From positions 477,933-541,932 of the forward strand of contig JAIEMW010000004.1 of the NCBI GenBank assembly GCA_019751815.1: a DNA stretch of 64,000 nt, written 5' to 3'. Origin of the DNA: Cyanobacteriota bacterium. Lineage in GTDB: Bacteria > Cyanobacteriota > Vampirovibrionia > Vampirovibrionales > Vampirovibrionaceae. Under the pieces are notes generated by a model. That model searched no databases and was not told where the DNA came from. It saw nothing but the letters and a program-made list of their open reading frames with translations. Shown here one piece after another: positions 3,241 to 15,482 of this stretch (position 1 is the stretch's first letter; the number at the start of each line of letters is the position of its first letter). Position numbers and translations under genes: made by a program.

Positions 3241-4590
3241 ATGAAACTTTGCGTTATTGGCACCGGATATGTGGGCTTGGTCACCGGAACCTGTTTGGCC
3301 GAAATGGGCAATCAGGTGATCTGTGTGGACGTGGATCCCACTAAGATAGATGCTTTGCGCCGAGGGGAAGTCCCGATTTATGAACCAGGCCTGGACGAAT
3401 TGATTCAGACCAACACGCGTGAAGGCCGTCTGCATTTCACAACCGATCTTTCCTGGGCGGTCCAAGAATCTTTGGTCTGCTTTATTGCTGTTGGAACCCC
3501 GCCTCGAGTCGATGGTTCTGCCGATCTCACTGCCGTGTTTAATGTGGCGATCTCAATTGCGCGTGCAATGCCAGACTACCGGGTGATTGTGACCAAGAGT
3601 ACAGTCCCTGTTGGGACTTCTGAGCAAGTGGGCAGGTTGATCGCGGAAAACACGAGCACCCCTTTTTCCATCGTCTCGAATCCAGAATTTTTAAAACAGG
3701 GTGCGGCCGTTGATGATTGCTTGAAGCCTGACCGGGTGGTTGTTGGCACAAACGATCAACGGGCTTCCGATATTATGCAGGAGTTGTACTCGCCGTTTTT
3801 ACGGACAGGAAATCCCATTATTTTGATGGATATTCCTTCTGCGGAGATGACCAAATACGTGGCCAACGCTTTTTTGGCCACCAAAATTTCCTTTATCAAT
3901 GAGATGAGTAAACTCTGTGAGCAGGTGGGTGCGGATATTTCCCAAGTGCGAACAGGGATTTCGACGGATTCTCGAATTGGAGGGCAGTTCCTCTTCCCAG
4001 GAATTGGGTTTGGAGGGTCTTGTTTCCCCAAAGACATTAAGGCTTTGATTAAAACATCCCAGGAGTTTGGCTGTCCGTCTCAAATTCTGCAAGCGGTGGA
4101 TCAGGTCAATCAAGATCAGCGTGATTTCTTTCTCGATAAAGTATATCGACGTTTTGGCGCGGATCTTTCCGGAAAAACCTTTGCAGTTTGGGGCCTGGCT
4201 TTTAAACCCAGAACAGATGATTTGCGAGAAGCCCCCAGCGTCACTGTGATTGAAGCGTTACTGTCCCGAGGGGCTAGAGTTCAAGCCTACGATCCCAAGG
4301 CGATCCCCAATGCCAAAGTTCTTTTTGAATCGCGGGTGACCTTTGCAGACACCGCTTATGAGGCACTCAATCAAGCAGACGCGATGTTGCTGATTACCGA
4401 GTGGAATGAGTTTCGCCGTCCCGATTTTGATCAAATGAAGCAGCGGATGAAAACCCCGGTGATTATTGACGGGCGAAATCAATACGATCCAGAGCGGATG
4501 CTTCGCAGAGGCTTTGAATACCAGGCCATGGGACTGTTGATTCCCACAGGTATACCCGCAGACTCCCATTCTTCAGGGATTGGGGTCTAA
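3241..4590 (+). CDS. ugd: UDP-glucose 6-dehydrogenase
   Basis: This enzyme oxidises UDP-glucose to UDP-glucuronate in two NAD-dependent steps. The N-terminal Rossmann motif is [10 protein letters not shown] (7-16), NPEFLKQG lies near 147-154, and the catalytic cysteine is Cys 261 in the [10 protein letters not shown] motif. The length of 449 residues is normal for the family. Its stop codon shares one base with the next start (TAATG), and the preceding epimerase ends 12 bp upstream, so the genes form one operon. Its product feeds both neighbours: epimerisation to UDP-galacturonate and decarboxylation to UDP-xylose. Confidence 0.95.
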
Positions 4591-5555
4591 TGGGAGGCGC
4601 TCGTCAGATTCTGGTAACCGGTGGGGCGGGTTTTATTGGTTCACATTTGTGTGAACGGCTTTTAAATGACGGACACAGTGTTATTTGTGCGGATAACTTT
4701 TTTACTGGATCCAAAGAAAACATCCTCCCTCTGCTCTCCAATCCTTACTTCGAGCTGCTTCGGCATGATGTGAGTGAACCGCTGTTGATTGAGGTGGATG
4801 AAATTTACAACTTGGCTTGTCCGGCGTCTCCCATTCATTATCAATATAACCCCGTGAAAACTGTGAAAACCAATGTGATGGGGACGATCCATATGCTAGG
4901 GTTGGCCAAACGAACCCGGGCTAAGATGCTGCAGGCCTCAACATCAGAAGTATACGGCGATCCACAAGTACATCCACAACCGGAAACCTACTGGGGTAAT
5001 GTCAACCCCATTGGGATTCGCAGCTGTTACGATGAGGGAAAACGCCTGGCCGAAACACTGTGTATGGATTATCACCGACAAAATAATGTGCTCGTCAAAA
5101 TTGTTCGTATTTTTAATACCTACGGACCCCGAATGGCTGAGAATGACGGCCGGGTGGTGAGTAATTTTATTATTCAGGCCCTCAAAAATGAGCCAATTAC
5201 CCTGTACGGGGACGGTCAGCAAACTCGCTCTTTCTGCTATGTGGCGGATCTGGTAGAAGGGTTGGTTGCGATGATGAACCGAACGGACCCACGGGAAACA
5301 GGGCCGATTAATTTAGGGAATCCCTCTGAATTCACGATTCTGGAACTGGCAGAAACGGTCATAAAAATGACCGGATCTCGTTCCAAAATCGAGCAACACC
5401 CCTTGCCCGCAGACGATCCCACACAACGCAAACCAGATATTACCTTGGCACAAAAAAAATTGGGTTGGGCCCCGAGTATTTCTTTGGAAGAAGGGTTAAA
5501 GCCGACAATCGCCTATTTTGAAGCCCGTCTACACAAGGCCAAAGTAACGCTATAG
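4590..5555 (+). CDS. UDP-glucuronate decarboxylase (UDP-xylose synthase)
   Basis: This short-chain dehydrogenase/reductase converts UDP-glucuronate to UDP-xylose. The NAD site [10 protein letters not shown] is at residues 10-19, and the family-specific run [15 protein letters not shown] is near 71-85. The catalytic pair is Tyr 147/Lys 151 in YDEGK, followed by [10 protein letters not shown]. The length of 321 residues matches bacterial and plant UXS enzymes. It is the last gene of the UDP-sugar operon and converges with the cupin gene across 12 bp, with no obvious terminator between them. Xylose on a capsule, glycoprotein or LPS is the likely fate but is not shown here. Confidence 0.93.
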
Positions 5556-5567
5556 TATTTTATTTGG

Positions 5568-5909
5568 CTAGTATTCAGGCGGCTCAGCTTCAGGAACAGC
5601 ATTGAGCGTCACCGCTGGGGTGCTACTGGTGACGGTGACATTGTGCAAAATATTGGCGTCAAGATCCAATCGGTCCCCCGGATTGAGTTCCACCACCCCG
5701 TAGCCAGGAAACGAATATTGAACATGTCCACTCACCACAACCCGCACCAGTGGCATCGGAAATTTAAGCTCTGGGCTGTGTGAATGGGCTGGGTGCTCTT
5801 GTTGTTTGGGATGAAAGCCTTCACGTTCAAGCCAGCGAATTAAAAATTCGACCGTGGGCTCTTTGGGGGCATCCCAGCGGGAAACTTCAAAGGGGCGTTG
5901 CTGTGTCAC
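5568..5909 (-). CDS. Small cupin-fold protein
   Basis: The 113-residue product contains one cupin-like double-stranded beta-helix region. There are histidines in the HPAHSHS segment, a typical GHVQYSFPGYGVVELNPGD turn, and a second-motif histidine in ILHNVTV. The GTG start at 5909 was chosen because it lies 16 bp after the glycosyltransferase stop, with a GAGG about 11 bases upstream. The same frame is open further 5', but that part overlaps the glycosyltransferase and has no cupin character. It probably belongs to the same operon as the glycosyltransferase and Tic20-like genes. Its ligand or enzymatic role is unknown; metal or sugar binding is possible. Confidence 0.68.
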   Translation of the reverse strand: MTQQRPFEVSRWDAPKEPTVEFLIRWLEREGFHPKQQEHPAHSHSPELKFPMPLVRVVVSGHVQYSFPGYGVVELNPGDRLDLDANILHNVTVTSSTPAVTLNAVPEAEPPEY

Positions 5910-5925
5910 AAGAAGTAATGCCTCG

Positions 5926-8730
5926 CTAAGTATTAATGAGTTGATTGAGTTGATCGAGTGCCGGCATCGACAGATCCACAAAGTGGACCGAGAGAACCGG
6001 CAATCGGCCATGACCAGAGTAATCGACCGTTTGAACAATCCCTTTAAGGACTGTGGAGGTTTGGCTGTTCCACTGGAATTTAATCGAGACCACTTCACCT
6101 TTGGCAATATCGATTCGGTTTTTAAGGGTGATGGTACAGCCTAACTCACTAATGTCTCGGGTGAGTCCGCTGAAAGGCTTTTCTTCGTTGGCGATATTGG
6201 TAAAGCATGGAATGGCCTTTCGGGTAGGGGTAGCCACCCGAACCAGAGAAGAGCCTGCTCCAGAAGTGCTGAAAGGCTTTGGAAAGAGGAGTTCAATCAA
6301 CTGGAGTCGCTCGTCTTTTCCCATATGGATAAATTGAAAGCCAATAGAGACTTTTTGGAGTGCCACCCCTTGAATCCGGCTGACTGTGGCCTGTGTCTGT
6401 GTCCATTGTTCCTCACTCCAACGCATGGCGATACTAACCGTGTCCCCTTCTTTAAGAGGGTTTGGATAAGGCAAGGAGAGATTAATTCCGACTTCGCTGA
6501 TTTCTTCACTGACGCCCATTAATTTTTGTCCATCACTCAGCGTAATTTGGGCGGTCAGCGTTTTTGGAAAACGCACCATCCGGCGAGATTCATCTTCACT
6601 TTTGTGAGACATCATGCGCATTGGGGTCATTAAAAAGTCGCGCATACTTTGGGCCCGTTCAATCAGTGAACGAAGTTTCTTTTCAGAGGCAATGGATCCG
6701 TACATGTGTTGCACAGCCAGGGCTTTGGCTGGAGCTGTTGGGGCTTGATTGAGATTGTCTTGAAAACGAAAGCCGACACTAAAGCTTTGATCGTCATTAA
6801 TCGCACTGCGAACGGCCTGCACAAAAAACGTATTGGCCGTGTCTATGTCCCAATCCAGTATTTTGACAGGCATGGTTCCCGAAAGGGGAATCGGCGACAT
6901 AAAAGTCGCTGAAAAGCCGGTTTCACTGATATCGGTGGTTTTACCAAAGGCGATCGATCCGTCTAATAACCGCAACTCACAACTGAGCGCCTTGTAAATT
7001 CTCGGAGTAATCCGGTAACGCGGGCGTTCGTTGGCAACCAACATGACCCCGCCCAAGATAAAGAGATTGTAGAAAGTCCAGATAAAGTAAACCCAGACGC
7101 CTTCTTCACCCCAGTAGTTCATAATCACTGTTCGGGCGATATAAACACCCAGCCCTATCCAAAGAAGGACAGAAATAAATAACTGTGTACTGATTGGCGT
7201 CAGACCGAGCCCGGATTTAAGACGGTTTTGAATTTGCTTGGCGGTTTTTTGAGGAGATAACAACGTGAGTAAGGCGGTGAAGGTTAAGTATGCACAGAGC
7301 GCCGTCTCATAGACTTCTGCCCACAGGCTTTCTCGATGGCCTTGGTGAATAATGGAGTACCCAATCGCCAAGCAGATAAAACTGGGACCGTAATAAATCA
7401 GTACTTCAGCAAAAGTGGCGTGAAATGCGGGAACTTGGAAAAACAAGAAAGACAGTGGGGCGATTAAAAAGACCAGGCGAGGAATCCCTTCAAAAAAGTA
7501 GGCAGCACCGGCCAAGTAGCAAATTTTTTGATACTTGCTCAGCTTTTTTGCCGAAAGGGGGTTTTGTTTTAACAACAATTGCCCCACACCGCGTGCCCAG
7601 CGGACACGGTCGTTCACAAAGTCAAGAAAGGTTTGCTCCGTAAAGCAGGTGGATAAATACTCCCCGATATAGAGTGATTTCCAGCCCAGTTGGTGAATTT
7701 CGTAACCGGTCACCAACTCATCTTTGGCGGTGTCAGTCGAAAACCCACCGACCTCATCCAGTGCTTTTCGCCGTATTACCGAACCAGAACCCATCAAAAA
7801 CGCCGTATCCCATGCATCATTGCCGGTTTGCATGGTGTGGAAAAACAAATCTTGTTCATTATTGGTCACCTGTTCAGCGAGTAAATTTCGCTGAAAGGGA
7901 TCAGGGGCATAGTAATGAGTACGGGTCTGCACAAACCCAAGCTCTGGATCGGCAATAAAATTCGGCAGGACCTGTTCAAAAAACGGCTTTATGGGTGCCA
8001 TATCCGCTCTCAGTAGGCAAACATATTCTCCCTGGCTTCGCTGAAGAGCCTTATTGAGAATTTCCGTTTTCCCCGAGGCTTCTTTTTGTAAGGGGAGATA
8101 AATAACCCCAAGTCTTTGCGCAAGTGAAGCCCGCGCTTCATCAATATGGTCATCCAGTAAATAAATGGTTTTGTTGGTATAAGACAGTGCCAGACAGCTC
8201 ATCAGGGTTGTTTCTATGGTGGAGAGGGGTTCAGTCAGAACTGGAATAAAGATATCCACATAAGGTTGGTTTAGCTGCAGTTTTTGTTGCGCCTGCTTAT
8301 TCGGGATTCGTCGTTTGATTTGCAGGGTCTGTAAGTAGCTGAGCAAGAGATAAATAAAGGCTGCCACTTCGGCCAAAAACAGCAAAACACTCCAAAAGGT
8401 AGAAAACGCACTGCTGGTGTTTAAGGTCTCGAGTCCGCGCCATTGAAGTTGCCGAAGAATAGCTGCTCCTGTGATCATCATGGCATACGCTCTTCCCTGA
8501 GGGTAAAACCGGTCATTAATCAAAATCAGCGCGATCAGCACAGCAGAAAAGAAGATTTGGAGAAGTATGGGAAGGCCAAGGGAGAGCTCAGGTAAATCCC
8601 ATTCGTGAAGACGGATAGCCTCCCAATGGAAAACATCCGGTTGAAAGTGACTGTAAATGATGAAAGCACCAAAGCCTGTGGCAATTAAGCATAGGCTGAT
8701 GCTGAAGGTTAGAAAGAAAAATCGTTTCAT
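5926..8730 (-). CDS. BcsA-like membrane glycosyltransferase (GT2) with three PilZ-like regions
   Basis: The 934-residue protein has the cellulose-synthase layout: about four N-terminal membrane helices, a cytosolic GT2 domain, about five further helices and a C-terminal PilZ region. The GT2 core shows YLLDDH (first Asp pair), FLMGSGSVIRR (in place of FFCGS), AKDE (TED position, catalytic Asp kept) and DRVRW (Q-x-x-R-W position). Two motifs deviate: the D-x-D site reads RAD and the Gln of QxxRW is Asp. Three successive PilZ-like units follow: RPRYR with DISETG, RRMVR with EISEVG, and a third with DISELG but no RxxxR. PilZ domains bind cyclic di-GMP, so allosteric control is likely. No BcsB, BcsC or BcsZ is adjacent. 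The polymer made is unknown. Confidence 0.82.
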   Translation of the reverse strand: MKRFFFLTFSISLCLIATGFGAFIIYSHFQPDVFHWEAIRLHEWDLPELSLGLPILLQIFFSAVLIALILINDRFYPQGRAYAMMITGAAILRQLQWRGLETLNTSSAFSTFWSVLLFLAEVAAFIYLLLSYLQTLQIKRRIPNKQAQQKLQLNQPYVDIFIPVLTEPLSTIETTLMSCLALSYTNKTIYLLDDHIDEARASLAQRLGVIYLPLQKEASGKTEILNKALQRSQGEYVCLLRADMAPIKPFFEQVLPNFIADPELGFVQTRTHYYAPDPFQRNLLAEQVTNNEQDLFFHTMQTGNDAWDTAFLMGSGSVIRRKALDEVGGFSTDTAKDELVTGYEIHQLGWKSLYIGEYLSTCFTEQTFLDFVNDRVRWARGVGQLLLKQNPLSAKKLSKYQKICYLAGAAYFFEGIPRLVFLIAPLSFLFFQVPAFHATFAEVLIYYGPSFICLAIGYSIIHQGHRESLWAEVYETALCAYLTFTALLTLLSPQKTAKQIQNRLKSGLGLTPISTQLFISVLLWIGLGVYIARTVIMNYWGEEGVWVYFIWTFYNLFILGGVMLVANERPRYRITPRIYKALSCELRLLDGSIAFGKTTDISETGFSATFMSPIPLSGTMPVKILDWDIDTANTFFVQAVRSAINDDQSFSVGFRFQDNLNQAPTAPAKALAVQHMYGSIASEKKLRSLIERAQSMRDFLMTPMRMMSHKSEDESRRMVRFPKTLTAQITLSDGQKLMGVSEEISEVGINLSLPYPNPLKEGDTVSIAMRWSEEQWTQTQATVSRIQGVALQKVSIGFQFIHMGKDERLQLIELLFPKPFSTSGAGSSLVRVATPTRKAIPCFTNIANEEKPFSGLTRDISELGCTITLKNRIDIAKGEVVSIKFQWNSQTSTVLKGIVQTVDYSGHGRLPVLSVHFVDLSMPALDQLNQLINT

Positions 8731-8757: not shown

Positions 8758-9243
8758 TTAGACTTGCCGGCGAACAATGCCTGTGATGCCAGGCAGTTGC
8801 AAGGTTTGGCCAAGAAGTGTGGAAATCCCCAAAACACCCCCGATGGTATACGATGCCAAGACAACCCCCTGGTTTAACCAGGGCTGTAAGGTGAGCTCGA
8901 TGAAAGTGGCCATCTCAGTTTGCTGGGCGATGAGTAGGAGGCTGTATAGGCAGTTGATGAATTCCGTCAAAATTAATACGGTCAAACAAAAGACAAAAAA
9001 CACCACCAATCCTTGAAAACTGTGATACCGCAGTAAATAAGGAAAACGCGCACTATTGGGCCGAATAAACACCCCGTAGATAATTGCCAGCAAAGGCAGC
9101 AATAGTTGAATGGCCAGTCTGACATTGCTGCAGGCAAGCCCGAGTGTTCCGTAAATAATACAGCACAACAATCTAACCCCCCATCCCTCTGAAGGGTGGC
9201 TTTGCTGTGGTTGTTTAGGGAAGCGAATCACTTTCGAGGACAT
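8758..9243 (-). CDS. Tic20-like small membrane protein
   Basis: The 161-residue protein has about four hydrophobic segments. A cytosolic RFPYLLRYHSFQG stretch resembles the arginine-rich, F-N/H-x-x-Q loop of the Tic20/Ycf60 family in cyanobacteria and plastids. That family contributes to the plastid protein-import channel; its bacterial role is unclear. ATG 9243 was chosen over an upstream TTG (9288) because it leaves a short polar N terminus before the first helix. It is the first gene of a minus-strand operon with the glycosyltransferase 27 bp downstream, so a role near polysaccharide export is possible. The family call rests on pattern recognition only. Confidence 0.55.
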   Translation of the reverse strand: MSSKVIRFPKQPQQSHPSEGWGVRLLCCIIYGTLGLACSNVRLAIQLLLPLLAIIYGVFIRPNSARFPYLLRYHSFQGLVVFFVFCLTVLILTEFINCLYSLLLIAQQTEMATFIELTLQPWLNQGVVLASYTIGGVLGISTLLGQTLQLPGITGIVRRQV

Positions 9244-9324
9244 TGAGTGAACCGGGCTGTTTTTTGCATAATGTTTGCATAATAACAAGCAAGCGGATGT
9301 TTAAACATCCCATTTTATAGAAAC
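9244..9324. promoter_or_regulatory. Divergent control region between slt and the glycosyltransferase operon
   Basis: This 81-bp spacer separates two divergent operons. It contains a perfect 16-bp palindrome, GGATGTTTAAACATCC (9295-9310). Next to it are two direct copies of TTTGCATAAT (about 9263-9272 and 9274-9283) that could act as -10 elements or operators. The palindrome lies in the presumed 5' leader of slt, 14 bases before its ATG, and upstream of promoters reading the other way. Position and symmetry suggest a dimeric regulator binding site; no regulator gene is adjacent. Confidence 0.5.
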
Positions 9325-11520
9325 ATGAAATCAAACGTCTTTCACTGGCCATATGTGCGCCAAATTCGACAGTTTCGCCGGCAGCACCCTCGGCAGTTTT
9401 TGCTGGGTTCGCTTTGCGTGGCCTGGATTGTAACCAGCCTCATATTTTCCATGTTTCAGGAAACCTCTGTGTCAGCGGTCATGTTTAATCCTTTGGCCGG
9501 GAAATCAAAAGCCACGGCAGATGCCCAGTATAAGCAGGCGGTACAGGCCATACAAAGAGGAGACGGGAGAGAGGCCTTGCACACACTCCAGTCTTTAGAG
9601 GCCGTATTTCCAGGTTACCGTCCCCTTTTGCTACTCCACGAAGCAGAAGCCGCGGCACTAACCGGAGATGAGTCTTTGGTACAACATGCTCTTGGCCAGA
9701 TTTTACACCTCAAAAATCATCACACCCTCAAGCCTTTAGCCCAATATCGACTGGCGCAGTCACTATTGAGAAGCCGAAGGGAAGCCGCCGCTTTGACGAT
9801 GTTTCAAACGTTACAGCACACCTACCCCCAAACCGAGTACGCGATCGGCGCGCTTTACTATATGGGTCTTTTGGCCAAGAGGCCGGAGTACTGGGCCCAG
9901 TATCTGACACTTGCACCAACGGGTCGTTTTGCCAATGAGATATTGGCAAAGAAACAACAAGCCTTAAGTCTGTTAGTCCAGGCCAGGGCTTACGCCCGGG
10001 CAAAAAACTGGCAACAGGCATTGCGCTGCTTTAAACAGGCCTCTCAACAAGATCATGAAAAATTATCAGCGACAGACCGTCTTTTACTGGCAGAGACGTT
10101 AATCCAGAGTAATCATTTGAATAATAATACTGTGGCACAAGGCCGAACGCTGATTGAGGCAAATTTGGCGGCCAGTCCAGATGCCGAAACGACCGAAAGG
10201 CTGGTTGATCTGGTCATCCAAAATCAACAGAAAACAGGCTGGCTTAAAACCATGATGGCCTATTACCAGAAGCCTTTCCTGGGGTGGGAGTATTTGGCTT
10301 GGAAGCTGGGGCAGTTGGACCCTGCGATGAAGGGGGAAGCCTCTTGGTGGATCCTGAAGAATGCGCCTCAGAGTGATTATGCTCCAGAGTCTAGATGGTT
10401 TTTACTATGGCAAGCAGTACAGTCCGGGCAGTACGGGCTCTGTGTGGATCACGCCCGGCAATTTCTAGCGCATTACCCCTCAGCCCGCTCAGCGCCTAAG
10501 GCCATGTTTTGGCAAGGCAAATGTTTGGAAAGAGGTGGGCAGGCAGAACAAGCCGCAGAAGTGTATCAATCAATTCTGGCAAGCTATCCTCAGAGCTATT
10601 ATGCCTTTCGTGCTTCCGGTCGGCTAAAATCTTTACGAGATAAACAGCCCGATCCCGCCTGGCGTCTGCTGGCGACATCGGTGGATTTGTCTGACACGAA
10701 AAACAACGCTGAAAACTCCCAAGCACGAGAAACCACACCAGAGCAATTGCTGGATACCTTAAGTCAGGTACTCAGCTCTAAGGCTGACTTTATCAACGAT
10801 AAACCGTTAATTGTCGCTTTAGCCCGCTCTCACGCCTTTGATGATGCCCGTCTTCTTGGCCATGAGCTCAGCAGTGAGAAAACAAAACCAAACGAAAACG
10901 CAGAACCGCTCACCGGCACCATGTTAGAGAATGCCATGTTAGAGAGTGCCTTACTTGCACTCGAGGGGAACCGAACAGAGAGCATCCGGGTTTTACGGCA
11001 GGCCCTGGCCCGTTCTTCACATCCCTACCAGCTCAGTAAGCTAGAAATGCAGTTGATGTACCCTCGCTACTTTCAAGATCTTATTCGGCAAGAGGCAAGT
11101 CGTAACGGGCTTCCTCCTGATTTGATTACCGGCTTAATGAGAGAGGAAAGCCATTTCCAAGAGACTGCGGTCAGTGGCTCTCAGGCCATGGGGCTGATGC
11201 AGCTGCTTCCTTCTACCGCTCAAGAGGTTGCCAGAACAGAAGGACTATCCTCGTTTACAGCACTGTCTCTCTTTTCGCCAGAAATCAATGTTCGACTGGG
11301 CAGCCGGTATCTTAAAAGCTTAATCAACCGCTTTGACGGCAACCCAATGCCCGCTGTGGGGGGGTATAACGGAGGGCCTAATGCCATGGCGCGCTGGATT
11401 TCAGAGAAACAGGGGATGGACCCGGATCAATTTGTGGAGTCAATTCCTTACGATCAAACCCGAGAATATATCGAAAAAGTCTTTGCCAGCTGGTGGAACT
11501 ACGATCACTTTTCCTTCTAA
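9325..11520 (+). CDS. Slt-type lytic murein transglycosylase with TPR superhelix
   Basis: The 731-residue protein has an N-terminal signal-anchor (hydrophobic stretch near residues 28-45), a long alpha-helical TPR-like region and a C-terminal goose-lysozyme-like SLT domain. The catalytic glutamate sits in LMREESHF. It is followed by the family motifs GLMQLLPSTA and GGYNGGPNAM and the C-terminal IPYDQTREY. The enzyme cleaves the MurNAc-GlcNAc bond of peptidoglycan, forming 1,6-anhydro ends, and acts at the periplasmic face. The architecture matches Slt70. ATG 9325 has only a weak ribosome binding site (AGAAAC). Confidence 0.93.
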   Translation: MKSNVFHWPYVRQIRQFRRQHPRQFLLGSLCVAWIVTSLIFSMFQETSVSAVMFNPLAGKSKATADAQYKQAVQAIQRGDGREALHTLQSLEAVFPGYRPLLLLHEAEAAALTGDESLVQHALGQILHLKNHHTLKPLAQYRLAQSLLRSRREAAALTMFQTLQHTYPQTEYAIGALYYMGLLAKRPEYWAQYLTLAPTGRFANEILAKKQQALSLLVQARAYARAKNWQQALRCFKQASQQDHEKLSATDRLLLAETLIQSNHLNNNTVAQGRTLIEANLAASPDAETTERLVDLVIQNQQKTGWLKTMMAYYQKPFLGWEYLAWKLGQLDPAMKGEASWWILKNAPQSDYAPESRWFLLWQAVQSGQYGLCVDHARQFLAHYPSARSAPKAMFWQGKCLERGGQAEQAAEVYQSILASYPQSYYAFRASGRLKSLRDKQPDPAWRLLATSVDLSDTKNNAENSQARETTPEQLLDTLSQVLSSKADFINDKPLIVALARSHAFDDARLLGHELSSEKTKPNENAEPLTGTMLENAMLESALLALEGNRTESIRVLRQALARSSHPYQLSKLEMQLMYPRYFQDLIRQEASRNGLPPDLITGLMREESHFQETAVSGSQAMGLMQLLPSTAQEVARTEGLSSFTALSLFSPEINVRLGSRYLKSLINRFDGNPMPAVGGYNGGPNAMARWISEKQGMDPDQFVESIPYDQTREYIEKVFASWWNYDHFSF

Positions 11521-11616
11521 GGCGTAATTCATGCTTTTCAAGTGACCGTCTTCTCGGTATGATCGCGGATAAATCAAGTTTGTGTCTTACAAACAAGAAG
11601 TGGAGACGTATTGCCA

Positions 11617-13416
11617 ATGACGGCTCAGTCCAGTGGAGAAAACGCCCAGTCGCCCTCGTTTGATGCATCCCAAGGGGTGCAAGGGTCTTTTGTATTGATG
11701 CTTCACAGCCACCTACCCTTCTACCGAAAGGCGGGAATGTGGCCTTTCGGGGAAGAAAATCTTTACGAATGTATGGCAGAAACTTACTTGCCGCTGTTGA
11801 ATGCGGTGAATGAATTATTGGCAGAAGGAATTTTGGCCAAGATTACCGTTGGAATCACCCCTATTTTGGCGGAGCAATTGGCCGATGCCCATTTGCAACA
11901 AGGGTTTATTGATTATATTCGGGCTCGTTTAAAAGCAGTAGAAACCGATCTGGCACAGTATCCCGATCCCAAAGTGCCTCATTCAGAACATTTGGCTTAT
12001 CTCGCGTCGTTTTATCAAAAGCAATTCCGACAAACGCTGGACGATTTTACGAATCGCTACGAGCGAAACTTACTGGCGGGTTTTAAAAAGCTCCAAGACG
12101 CGGGTGCGATTGAAATTACCACTTCGGCTGCAACCCATGGGTTCTCTCCCTTGCTTGCTTCAGATGCCAGCTTACAAGCCCAGTATAAAACAGGGGTAGA
12201 TGCTTACCAAAGACATTTTGGTAAGTCTCCTCGGGGTTGTTGGTTGCCAGAGTGTGCGTACAGGCCTGCCATGGATGTGGTTGATCCGGCTACCAGTCAG
12301 GTGAACCGTCGTCCTTCCATTGATGCGTTTTTATATCAGAACCAATTACAGTACTTTTTTACTGAATACCACGCGATTGAAGGCGGGGTTACCTATGGGA
12401 CAAGGCCTCTGGCAGGAATTTACGGCAGTATTCAACATATTCCTTTGCCGGCCCGAGTGCCCACCGGGTTAAGTACCTACGAAGCATACTGGATGAAAGA
12501 TTACCCTGTGGCGGTGATGGGCCGCAATGATCGGGTCAGTTTTCAGGTGTGGTCTGCTGCTCATGGATACCCGGGAGACGGTCTCTACCGAGAATTCCAC
12601 AAAAAAGATGAGCAATCCGGGATGCATTACTGGGCTTTGACCAGCAAGGACTGCGATTTAGCCCATAAAATGTACTATGATCCCGAGCGAGCGGTAAATC
12701 AAACACAAAGCCATGCGGATCACTTTGTGCATCTGGTTCAAGAGATGATTGAACAGCGCCGTGCTGAAGAGGCTTCTGCTGACGCGGGATCTCAGACTGA
12801 TGCGGATGCGTCCCATCCTTTGGTGATGGTGTCCTTTGACACAGAACTCTACGGGCACTGGTGGTTTGAAGGCGTTGAGTGGCTAAAACGGGTTATTCGG
12901 GGTTTGCATCAGAACCCGGTGGTTCAAATACAAACAGCTGGTGAGTATCTAACCCAGTATCCACCCAAGCAAAGTATTGGACTGCCAGAGAGCACCTGGG
13001 GCCAAGGTGGTCACTACTGGGTGTGGAATAACCACCACACGGAGTGGATGTGGCCTGTGATTCACCAGGCAGAACGTCAGATGGAAAGTCTGGTTGCTCG
13101 CTTCGGGGAAAAGCCAAACCCACTTCAGACTCGAATACTCAATCAGGCGCTGAGAGAATTGCTGCTGCTTCAAAGCAGTGACTGGCCGTTTTTGGTGACG
13201 ACTTTCCAGGCCAAAGATTATGCTATTGAGCGCTTCCAGGGCCATGTGGATCGTTTTAATCTACTCTTTGACATGCTTGAGCTAAAAAATGCGGATGAAG
13301 TGGCTCTGGCCGAAATCGAAGAGCTGGATAATGCCTTTCCAGGGATTGATTACCGATGGTATCACCTTGAGGCCATCCCTCAGCCTCAGACCACGGCGGT
13401 TGCTCTCACAAAGTAA
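11617..13416 (+). CDS. GH57 family 1,4-alpha-glucan branching enzyme
   Basis: The N-terminal motif LMLHSHLPFYR, the THGFSPLL block, the nucleophile region GCWLPECAYRP (Glu about 212) and the acid/base region SFDTELYGHWW (about 410) define a glycoside hydrolase family 57 branching enzyme. Such enzymes introduce alpha-1,6 branches into glycogen. The C-terminal helical domain (HHTEWMWPVIHQAE, LLLLQSSDWPF) is also typical. At 599 residues it is longer than many homologues because of an insertion near 385-400 rich in Ala, Glu and Asp. GGAG at 11602-11605 serves ATG 11617 with 11-base spacing; TTG 11611 is an alternative. It implies glycogen storage, though no other glycogen genes are nearby. Confidence 0.92.
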   Translation: MTAQSSGENAQSPSFDASQGVQGSFVLMLHSHLPFYRKAGMWPFGEENLYECMAETYLPLLNAVNELLAEGILAKITVGITPILAEQLADAHLQQGFIDYIRARLKAVETDLAQYPDPKVPHSEHLAYLASFYQKQFRQTLDDFTNRYERNLLAGFKKLQDAGAIEITTSAATHGFSPLLASDASLQAQYKTGVDAYQRHFGKSPRGCWLPECAYRPAMDVVDPATSQVNRRPSIDAFLYQNQLQYFFTEYHAIEGGVTYGTRPLAGIYGSIQHIPLPARVPTGLSTYEAYWMKDYPVAVMGRNDRVSFQVWSAAHGYPGDGLYREFHKKDEQSGMHYWALTSKDCDLAHKMYYDPERAVNQTQSHADHFVHLVQEMIEQRRAEEASADAGSQTDADASHPLVMVSFDTELYGHWWFEGVEWLKRVIRGLHQNPVVQIQTAGEYLTQYPPKQSIGLPESTWGQGGHYWVWNNHHTEWMWPVIHQAERQMESLVARFGEKPNPLQTRILNQALRELLLLQSSDWPFLVTTFQAKDYAIERFQGHVDRFNLLFDMLELKNADEVALAEIEELDNAFPGIDYRWYHLEAIPQPQTTAVALTK

Positions 13417-14360: not shown

Positions 14361-15482
14361 ATGGCAGTGAAAGATAAACAGAAATCCTCAGCAGAGTCGA
14401 ACAATGAAGTGGTGTCCTTAGATCCGGCGCAATTGCAGGAGCGGAAAAAGGCCCTGGGCTTTGCCTTGGAAAAGATTGAAAAAGATTTTGGCAAAGGCGC
14501 CATTATGAAACTGGGTGACCGCGCTTCCATTGGGATGGATGTGGTGCCCACTGGCGCACTCTCTCTGGACTTAGCACTTGGGGTTGGCGGGCTTCCTCGG
14601 GGCCGGATTATTGAAATCTACGGACCAGAATCTAGCGGGAAAACCACATTAACACTTAGTGTGGTGGCAGAAGCCCAAAAAGCAGGCGGTATTGCCGCCT
14701 TTGTGGACGCAGAACATGCCCTTGACCCTGAATATGCTAAAAAACTGGGTGTCAATATTGATGAGCTGCTGGTGAGCCAACCCGATACCGGGGAACAAGC
14801 CTTGGAGATCGCAGAGCAACTGGTGCGATCCGGCGCGATTGATGTCCTGGTCATTGACTCTGTGGCGGCATTGGTCCCTAAAGCGGAGATTGACGGAGAA
14901 ATGGGTGATACCCACGTGGGTCTCCAGGCCCGCCTGATGAGCCAAGCCCTGCGGAAATTGACGGCGATTGTTGGCAAAACCCGTACTATTGTGATTTTTA
15001 TCAACCAGCTCCGACAAAAAATTGGGGTGATGTACGGTAATCCAGAGACCACCACCGGTGGGAATGCCCTGAAATTTTATTCGAGTGTCCGTCTGGACAT
15101 CCGCCGGATTGAAACCTTGAAGCGAGACGGTACCGAATACGGCAACCGGGTCAAAGTACGGGTTGTTAAAAACAAAGTGGCTCCGCCATTCCGAGTGGCA
15201 GAATGTGATATTCTTTTTGGTGAAGGCATTTCCAGTGAAGGTTGTGTGCTGGATGTCGCCACTGAGCTAGGAATCGTCAAAAAAATGGGTACCTGGTACA
15301 GCTACAAAGAAGACAAGCTAGGCCAAGGTCGTGATAAAGCCCGTGAGCTGCTGAAAGAGAACAAAGCCTTGCTGCAACAGATTGACACAGAAGTCCGTCA
15401 GGCACTGACCGCTTCCCGTGAAGAGCTGAGCAAAACCGCAGCGGTCTCCACCTCTCCAGCAGAAGAGACAGAGGCTGAGTAA
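14361..15482 (+). CDS. recA: Recombinase RecA
   Basis: RecA forms ATP-dependent filaments on single-stranded DNA, drives strand exchange and stimulates LexA-type self-cleavage. The P-loop GPESSGKTT is at residues 88-96. The Walker B strand [16 protein letters not shown], the L2 region [22 protein letters not shown] and the C-terminal lysine/glutamate-rich tail are all present. The length of 373 residues is slightly longer than E. coli RecA because of an N-terminal extension of about 25 residues before the conserved [15 protein letters not shown] helix. It appears monocistronic, with an inverted repeat just downstream. Confidence 0.98.

Follow-up and report, generated by a model that had tools for sequence, protein, structure and literature searches.

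A degenerate cellulose synthase paralog with a preserved PilZ domain in a genome of the Vampirovibrionales

The 64,000-nucleotide stretch of DNA analysed here (the window) encodes a paralog of BcsA, the catalytic subunit of bacterial cellulose synthase, in which the motifs of the glycosyltransferase active site and of the gating loop are selectively lost and the first of three PilZ domains is preserved with a complete cyclic di-GMP (c-di-GMP) signature. In sequence and predicted structure, the protein has the attributes of a pseudoenzyme: its catalytic residues are lost, its fold is kept, an active-looking paralog is encoded in the same genome, and its reading frame is maintained. On the whole, it is probably a pseudo-synthase that has been kept for sensing c-di-GMP at the membrane or for regulation. 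The Vampirovibrionales are non-photosynthetic Cyanobacteriota, and the source organism is related to the predator Vampirovibrio.

Architecture of the protein and origin of the gene

The gene is a single open reading frame of 934 codons (934 amino acids) with an ATG start. Pfam assigns it the GT2 and cellulose-synthase domains and PilZ stretches, three at E ≤ 1 and two at E ≤ 0.001, PilZ1 being the weak match among the three units. The top NCBIfam models are those of the UDP-forming cellulose synthase catalytic subunit. The protein scores 415 bits against the TIGR03030 equivalog cut-off of 699 bits; this cut-off was rejected as a discriminator because four canonical relatives also fall below it (606–664 bits). 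The closest solved structures are the BcsA proteins of E. coli and Cereibacter (Rhodobacter) sphaeroides, at 24–26% identity. An AlphaFold model (mean pLDDT 78.8) has the BcsA fold, namely a GT-A domain with a membrane channel and PilZ, and comprises a BcsA-like membrane glycosyltransferase followed by three barrels, each six-stranded with a closing helix (strands 583–656, 726–801 and 841–917; whole spans 583–677, 726–815 and 841–933). The top eight Foldseek matches in the PDB are all BcsA (TMq 0.54–0.64, with 0.61–0.64 for 4p00, 9b8v and 5ej1), and the canonical paralog from the same genome, modeled as a control, shows this architecture as well. The original prediction of a cellulose-synthase-like protein with three tandem PilZ-like units is thus borne out by the reading frame, the Pfam stretches, the fold match and the three modelled barrels, rather than a single PilZ fold being found. 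The features of the locus are as follows.

5926–8730, minus strand: degenerate BcsA paralog (putative pseudo-cellulose synthase), from the reading frame, families, PDB homologs and fold match
7576–8280, minus strand: GT-A domain, residues 151–385, with DDH (193–195), SGKTEI (219–224), RAD-M (241–244), KDE (336–338) and DRVRW (374–378), from alignments and motif map
7027–7245, minus strand: former gating-loop region and following transmembrane (TM) helix, residues 496–568, from alignments and AlphaFold pLDDT
6751–7026, minus strand: PilZ1, residues 569–660, with RxxxR (R573–R577) and DISETG (600–605) intact, from motifs, AlphaFold and identity ratio
6286–6591, minus strand: PilZ2, residues 714–815, with RRMVR (716–720) and EISEVG (743–748), from the best Pfam stretch (715–816) and a barrel in the model
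5932–6246, minus strand: PilZ3, residues 829–933, without RxxxR and with DISELG (859–864), from Pfam, motifs and AlphaFold
8758–9288, minus strand: upstream small membrane protein, “Tic20-like” by appearance and without a family match, with homologs beside intact bcsA in two relatives
9325–11520, plus strand: divergent SLT-domain protein (lytic transglycosylase-like), a bcsA neighbor in seven relatives
11611–13416, plus strand: GH57/branching-enzyme-like protein of the same syntenic block
14361–15482: recA, after the GH57 gene
3241–5555, plus strand: UDP-glucose dehydrogenase (UGDH) and NAD-sugar dehydratase/decarboxylase (UXS-like), convergent neighbors, from families

The order of genes in the window, in which the Tic20-like gene is followed by the divergent SLT gene, GH57 and recA, is that of the bcsA site of relatives. 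In G002, G003 and G005–G009, seven relatives in all, an intact bcsA and the SLT gene are divergent. In those loci whose flanking DNA was read, GH57 comes after SLT in G002, G003, G005 and G006, a Tic20-like gene lies in between in G002 and G003, and bcsC lies downstream of bcsA in G003, G005 and G006; in two relatives (G001 and G004), bcsA occupies other places. Because an intact bcsA is found at the same site in seven relatives, the window gene is, by position, the resident bcsA copy, at a site that holds the working bcsA in most members of this family; the intact bcsA-bcsC pair is now located elsewhere and bcsC has been lost from the locus. Indeed, among the reading frames and family matches of the window, no bcsB, bcsC or bcsZ is adjacent to the gene, as had been noted originally. 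A small cupin-like reading frame (5568–5921, minus strand; sub-cut-off Pfam match) lies directly downstream, where relatives carry bcsC.

The second BcsA of the genome (C1:884110-886734), which the original prediction did not include, has three PilZ units and every motif intact, shares 37% identity with the window protein, and has as neighbors a gene for a GH6 cellulase and one for a BcsC with a BCSC_C domain. In a phylogenetic tree, the window protein falls inside the three-PilZ clade (support 100/99). The AU test rejects neither its sisterhood with the canonical copy of its own genome (p = 0.163) nor its grouping with family f3 (p = 0.165), and the former value fits both a duplication within the lineage and an arrival of the intact copy from a related lineage. 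Two divergent bcsB genes lie in tandem at C1:368238-372464 (L074), far from any bcsA. Co-duplication of the window gene with these was considered and rejected, because relatives with one three-PilZ BcsA also carry two BcsBs. Within the family, two divergent bcsB genes occur in nine of ten genomes (the relatives at L057–L073), adjacent to each other wherever the contig extends far enough, and the tenth, with one, is a 76% complete assembly; genomes of family f3 encode a triple-PilZ BcsA with no BcsB match. A shorter second BcsA-like paralog (685–726 amino acids) with intact TED and QxxRW and no triple-PilZ tail is present in G002, G011 and G013 (L044/L045/L046).

Active site and gating loop

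Active-site residues were assigned from alignments at about 35% identity, in every one of which the motifs are anchored by conserved flanking blocks, and from a motif map. The DxD motif reads RAD (Arg241-Ala-Asp243) and QxxRW reads DRVRW (Asp374-Arg-Val-Arg377-Trp378), so that the glutamine (Gln379 in BcsA numbering) is lost and RxRW is kept; both replacements had been correctly predicted. By contrast, the earlier assumption that the aspartate of TED is kept does not hold: TED aligns with Lys336-Asp337-Glu338, and in every alignment it is Glu338 that takes the place of the general base, Asp343 in Cereibacter BcsA. Three further losses extend beyond what had been described. HAKAGN is replaced by SGKTEI, and His249 (BcsA numbering) is replaced by Met. 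The FxVTxK gating loop is gone, with KxIQNR (K498, I500, Q501, N502 and R503) in place of FxVTPK and a deletion of about four residues, and the model has pLDDT below 50 at residues 500–502 and 504–508. Finally, the tether acid (Glu371 in Cereibacter BcsA; Asp in 12 of 12 relatives) is Gln366. In Cereibacter BcsA, Glu371 latches the gate to a PilZ arginine when c-di-GMP is absent (PMC10374906). As Gln366 replaces this acid while R573 and R577 are kept, the latch between PilZ and the gate appears to be gone and the ligand site does not. A motif search of the whole protein found no intact GT-domain DxD, QxxRW or TED at another place, so that the original prediction withstands this check.

These losses are concentrated in the functional motifs. 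Taking the invariant columns of 12 canonical triple-PilZ BcsAs of the Vampirovibrionales as a reference, the window protein keeps 11/12 in the N-terminal TM region, 61/107 in GT-A, 20/24 in the TM region, 11/21 in the gate and next TM helix, 19/28 in PilZ1, 9/10 in PilZ2 and 8/10 in PilZ3. Invariant positions within motifs, for which windows were chosen by the analyst from published motifs, are kept at 10 of 29, as against 129 of 183 other invariant positions (Fisher p = 0.0003).

Some of these changes correspond to positions that have been mutated in related enzymes. In BcsA, activity is abolished by F503A, F503I, K508A and K508R, and about 20 and 10% remains in V505A and V505L, respectively (PMC10592267); the window protein has K, R and I at the positions of F503, K508 and V505. 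In NodC, alanine at any residue of QxxRW is inactivating (PMC4132801). Since several changes of this kind occur here together, glucan synthesis by the window protein is very unlikely, judging from homologs and from mutagenesis in these other enzymes.

On the other hand, residues that contact UDP are kept (Asp193, Asp194, Lys221, Asp243, Arg377 and Trp378); among them, Asp193/Asp194 represent the Asp of D,D,D,Q(Q/R)xRW that contacts uracil. With Arg377, Trp378, Lys221, Asp193 and Asp243 in place, some residual or altered transferase chemistry could persist, and Glu338 could act as a catalytic base. The altered pocket (RAD, Glu338 and Asp374) might use a different substrate on the donor or acceptor side, UDP-xylose or UDP-glucuronate from the neighboring genes being candidates, and make a different glycan, which is consistent with the retained GT-A fold, UDP contacts and RxRW and with the adjoining UGDH and UXS-like genes. 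These UDP-sugar genes are the one positive pointer to the other acceptor or polymer that the original prediction offered, and as a substrate clue they are weak, because they are unspecific and UGDH and UXS also lie further on from an intact bcsA in one of the relatives (L075 in G003). Such neofunctionalization is also at odds with the loss of a gating loop that cellulose synthases require, and no new conserved motif is recognizable without orthologs. We regard it as unlikely.

Enzymes that do make another polymer differ from the window protein in this respect. RiGT2 of Romboutsia ilealis and BgsA of Sinorhizobium meliloti are BcsA-like GT2 synthases of mixed-linkage glucan, the former with a C-terminal PilZ and the latter with a different c-di-GMP-binding C-terminus, and both keep D,D,D,Q(Q/R)xRW (PMC10374906), whereas the window protein does not. 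The Orphan proteins of pseudomonads, which are NdvB-like cyclic glucan synthases, are likewise BcsA-like without being the BcsA of a bcs operon; they are described as synthases that combine GT2 with GH17, and the polymer proposed for them is another glucan (PMC10237404).

The dismantled variant was found in one genome. No ortholog was detected among 18 genomes of the order or 386 genomes of the phylum, nor by variant-specific peptides in a genome contig collection; close relatives may be missing from the collections searched. The canonical relatives keep the motifs, and loose patterns recover all four of them in 107 of 108 further BcsA homologs, a set in which 80 loci from named genomes were collected via the HAKAGN or DPFQRNL patterns and are thus biased toward intact enzymes. 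By a simple pattern, L098, a BcsA with two PilZ matches, has no recognizable FxVTxK. A keyword search of the open-access literature, covering few subscription papers, found nothing on an inactive BcsA paralog or on triple- or multi-PilZ BcsA.

PilZ domains and uneven divergence

PilZ1 combines a barrel with both elements that define a PilZ receptor, RxxxR (RITPR, 573–577) and [D/N]xSxxG (DISETG, 600–605), and its c-di-GMP signature is thus complete. PilZ2 has RRMVR, and its EISEVG has a non-consensus first letter. PilZ3 lacks RxxxR, as predicted, and so do the PilZ3 of the canonical copy in the same genome and, by alignment reading, those of relatives. A PilZ domain with an intact signature may still not bind c-di-GMP, as in RiGT2 (PMC10374906).

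The triple PilZ arrangement was considered as the novelty and rejected, because it is common to all canonical relatives in the order: profile HMMs, one for each PilZ block, found three units in 14 of 14 canonical BcsAs recovered in the Vampirovibrionales, one of which (L019) has its third PilZ cut by a contig end. Among the 80 BcsA loci from named genomes, three PilZ units occur only in the two Vampirovibrionales and two units in four loci, and among 28 further BcsA loci of the phylum the corresponding counts are 0 and 2. The BcsAs with two PilZ matches are L082, L098, L116 and L117 (Deltaproteobacteria and Nitrospira) and L204 and L214 (phylum genomes). Layered control by PilZ domains thus characterizes the order and not the window gene. 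Since all canonical BcsAs of the order are triple-PilZ proteins, the part of the original interpretation that proposed layered c-di-GMP control special to this protein is unsupported, and its peculiarity, as far as the sequence indicates, is its active site and not its number of PilZ domains.

This can be seen by comparison with known enzymes. With the BcsAs of Cereibacter (4HG6/4P00) and E. coli (9B8V and 9FMV), the window protein shares the fold, the TM-GT-A-TM-PilZ topology, RxxxR and D/NxSxxG of PilZ1, the first DD, the K, the second D of DxD, and RxRW. Unlike them, it lacks the first D of DxD, TED, the Q of QxxRW, HAKAGN and FxVTxK, has two extra PilZ domains, and has no bcsC at its locus. 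With the canonical triple-PilZ BcsAs of its order (C1:884110-886734; OFTM381; Vampirovibrio sp. MAG.114), it shares the whole architecture, including three PilZ domains with no RxxxR in the third, and with those of relatives the Tic20-like/SLT/GH57 locus; the active-site and gating motifs are intact in these enzymes but dismantled in the window protein.

Divergence was compared along the protein by the ratio of its identity to relatives to that of the canonical copy of the same genome. This ratio is 0.96 for PilZ1 (95% interval 0.79–1.17), 0.84 for the TM/interface helices, 0.81 for PilZ2 and 0.85 for PilZ3, and falls to 0.63 (0.55–0.71) for GT-A and 0.45 (0.31–0.60) for the gate region (PilZ1 vs. 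GT-A, permutation p = 0.00015). PilZ1 has thus diverged no more than the PilZ1 of the canonical copy. It is less outstanding on fully invariant columns, so its preservation rests on overall identity and the intact signature. The sensing half of the protein, in contrast to its catalytic half, does not appear to be decaying.

The resident bcsA may have become redundant beside the intact copy and be turning into a pseudogene that is functionless now, which would agree with the loss of the adjacent bcsC and with the occurrence of the variant in a single genome. The terminal branch of the window protein is about three times as long as that of its canonical paralog (2.11 vs. 0.68 changes per site). 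Neutral evolution along the extra length predicts about 78 stop codons, but the 934 codons of the gene contain no stop or frameshift. Together with losses concentrated in GT-A, the gate and the linker and a normal overall constraint on PilZ1, this makes a relic unlikely: the gene is probably not dead by drift, and at most the onset of function loss could be very recent.

A dead BcsA might alternatively serve independently of c-di-GMP as a structural subunit, either filling a non-catalytic place in an array of several synthases or anchoring a BcsB copy, given that its TM/interface helices are well kept and that two divergent BcsB copies are encoded in tandem. Such a scaffold would leave unexplained why PilZ1, the c-di-GMP site, has the highest identity ratio, and two BcsBs are also present in relatives that have no pseudo-synthase; we consider it distinctly improbable.

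A putative membrane receptor for c-di-GMP

The reading as a regulatory pseudo-synthase, the other half of the original interpretation, is better supported than that of another acceptor or polymer, because the losses cluster at the positions for donor, metal, base, acceptor and gating, PilZ1 has been preserved, and the genome also encodes an intact paralog. BcsA is the textbook example of an enzyme on which c-di-GMP acts via a PilZ domain in the same protein. The source genome encodes candidates for diguanylate cyclases (GGDEF; eight strong matches and one weak). Two stand-alone PilZ proteins (frames of 237 and 276 amino acids) are encoded close together at G000:C1:662778-663877 (L001, L003 and L041).

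The most likely scheme for the regulatory pseudo-synthase is as follows. With intact bcsA, bcsC and GH6 genes now elsewhere in the genome, the resident bcsA would have become a pseudo-synthase. Its GT-A domain and membrane helices remain BcsA-folded in the model and keep several UDP contacts; having lost the first Asp of DxD, the original base residue, the acceptor motif and the gating loop, it should not polymerize glucose. PilZ1, with its full signature under apparently normal constraint, would most likely make it a c-di-GMP receptor anchored in the membrane, acting in trans on cellulose output and making no cellulose itself, for instance by pairing with the active BcsA or by competing with it for BcsB, of which there are two copies. 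Alternatively, it might buffer c-di-GMP at the secretion site.

More specifically, we tentatively propose, as a possibility short of an expectation, that a cellulose synthase has turned into a membrane protein dedicated to c-di-GMP reception, through which the active synthase would be regulated in trans, be it in a heteromeric complex or by competition for BcsB, with sensing and synthesis, the two halves of an ordinary BcsA, split between paralogs. If so, this would represent a natural separation of the catalytic and sensing functions of BcsA, and would provide a system in which to ask whether the PilZ domain of BcsA can work in trans and whether mixed synthase complexes occur in bacteria.
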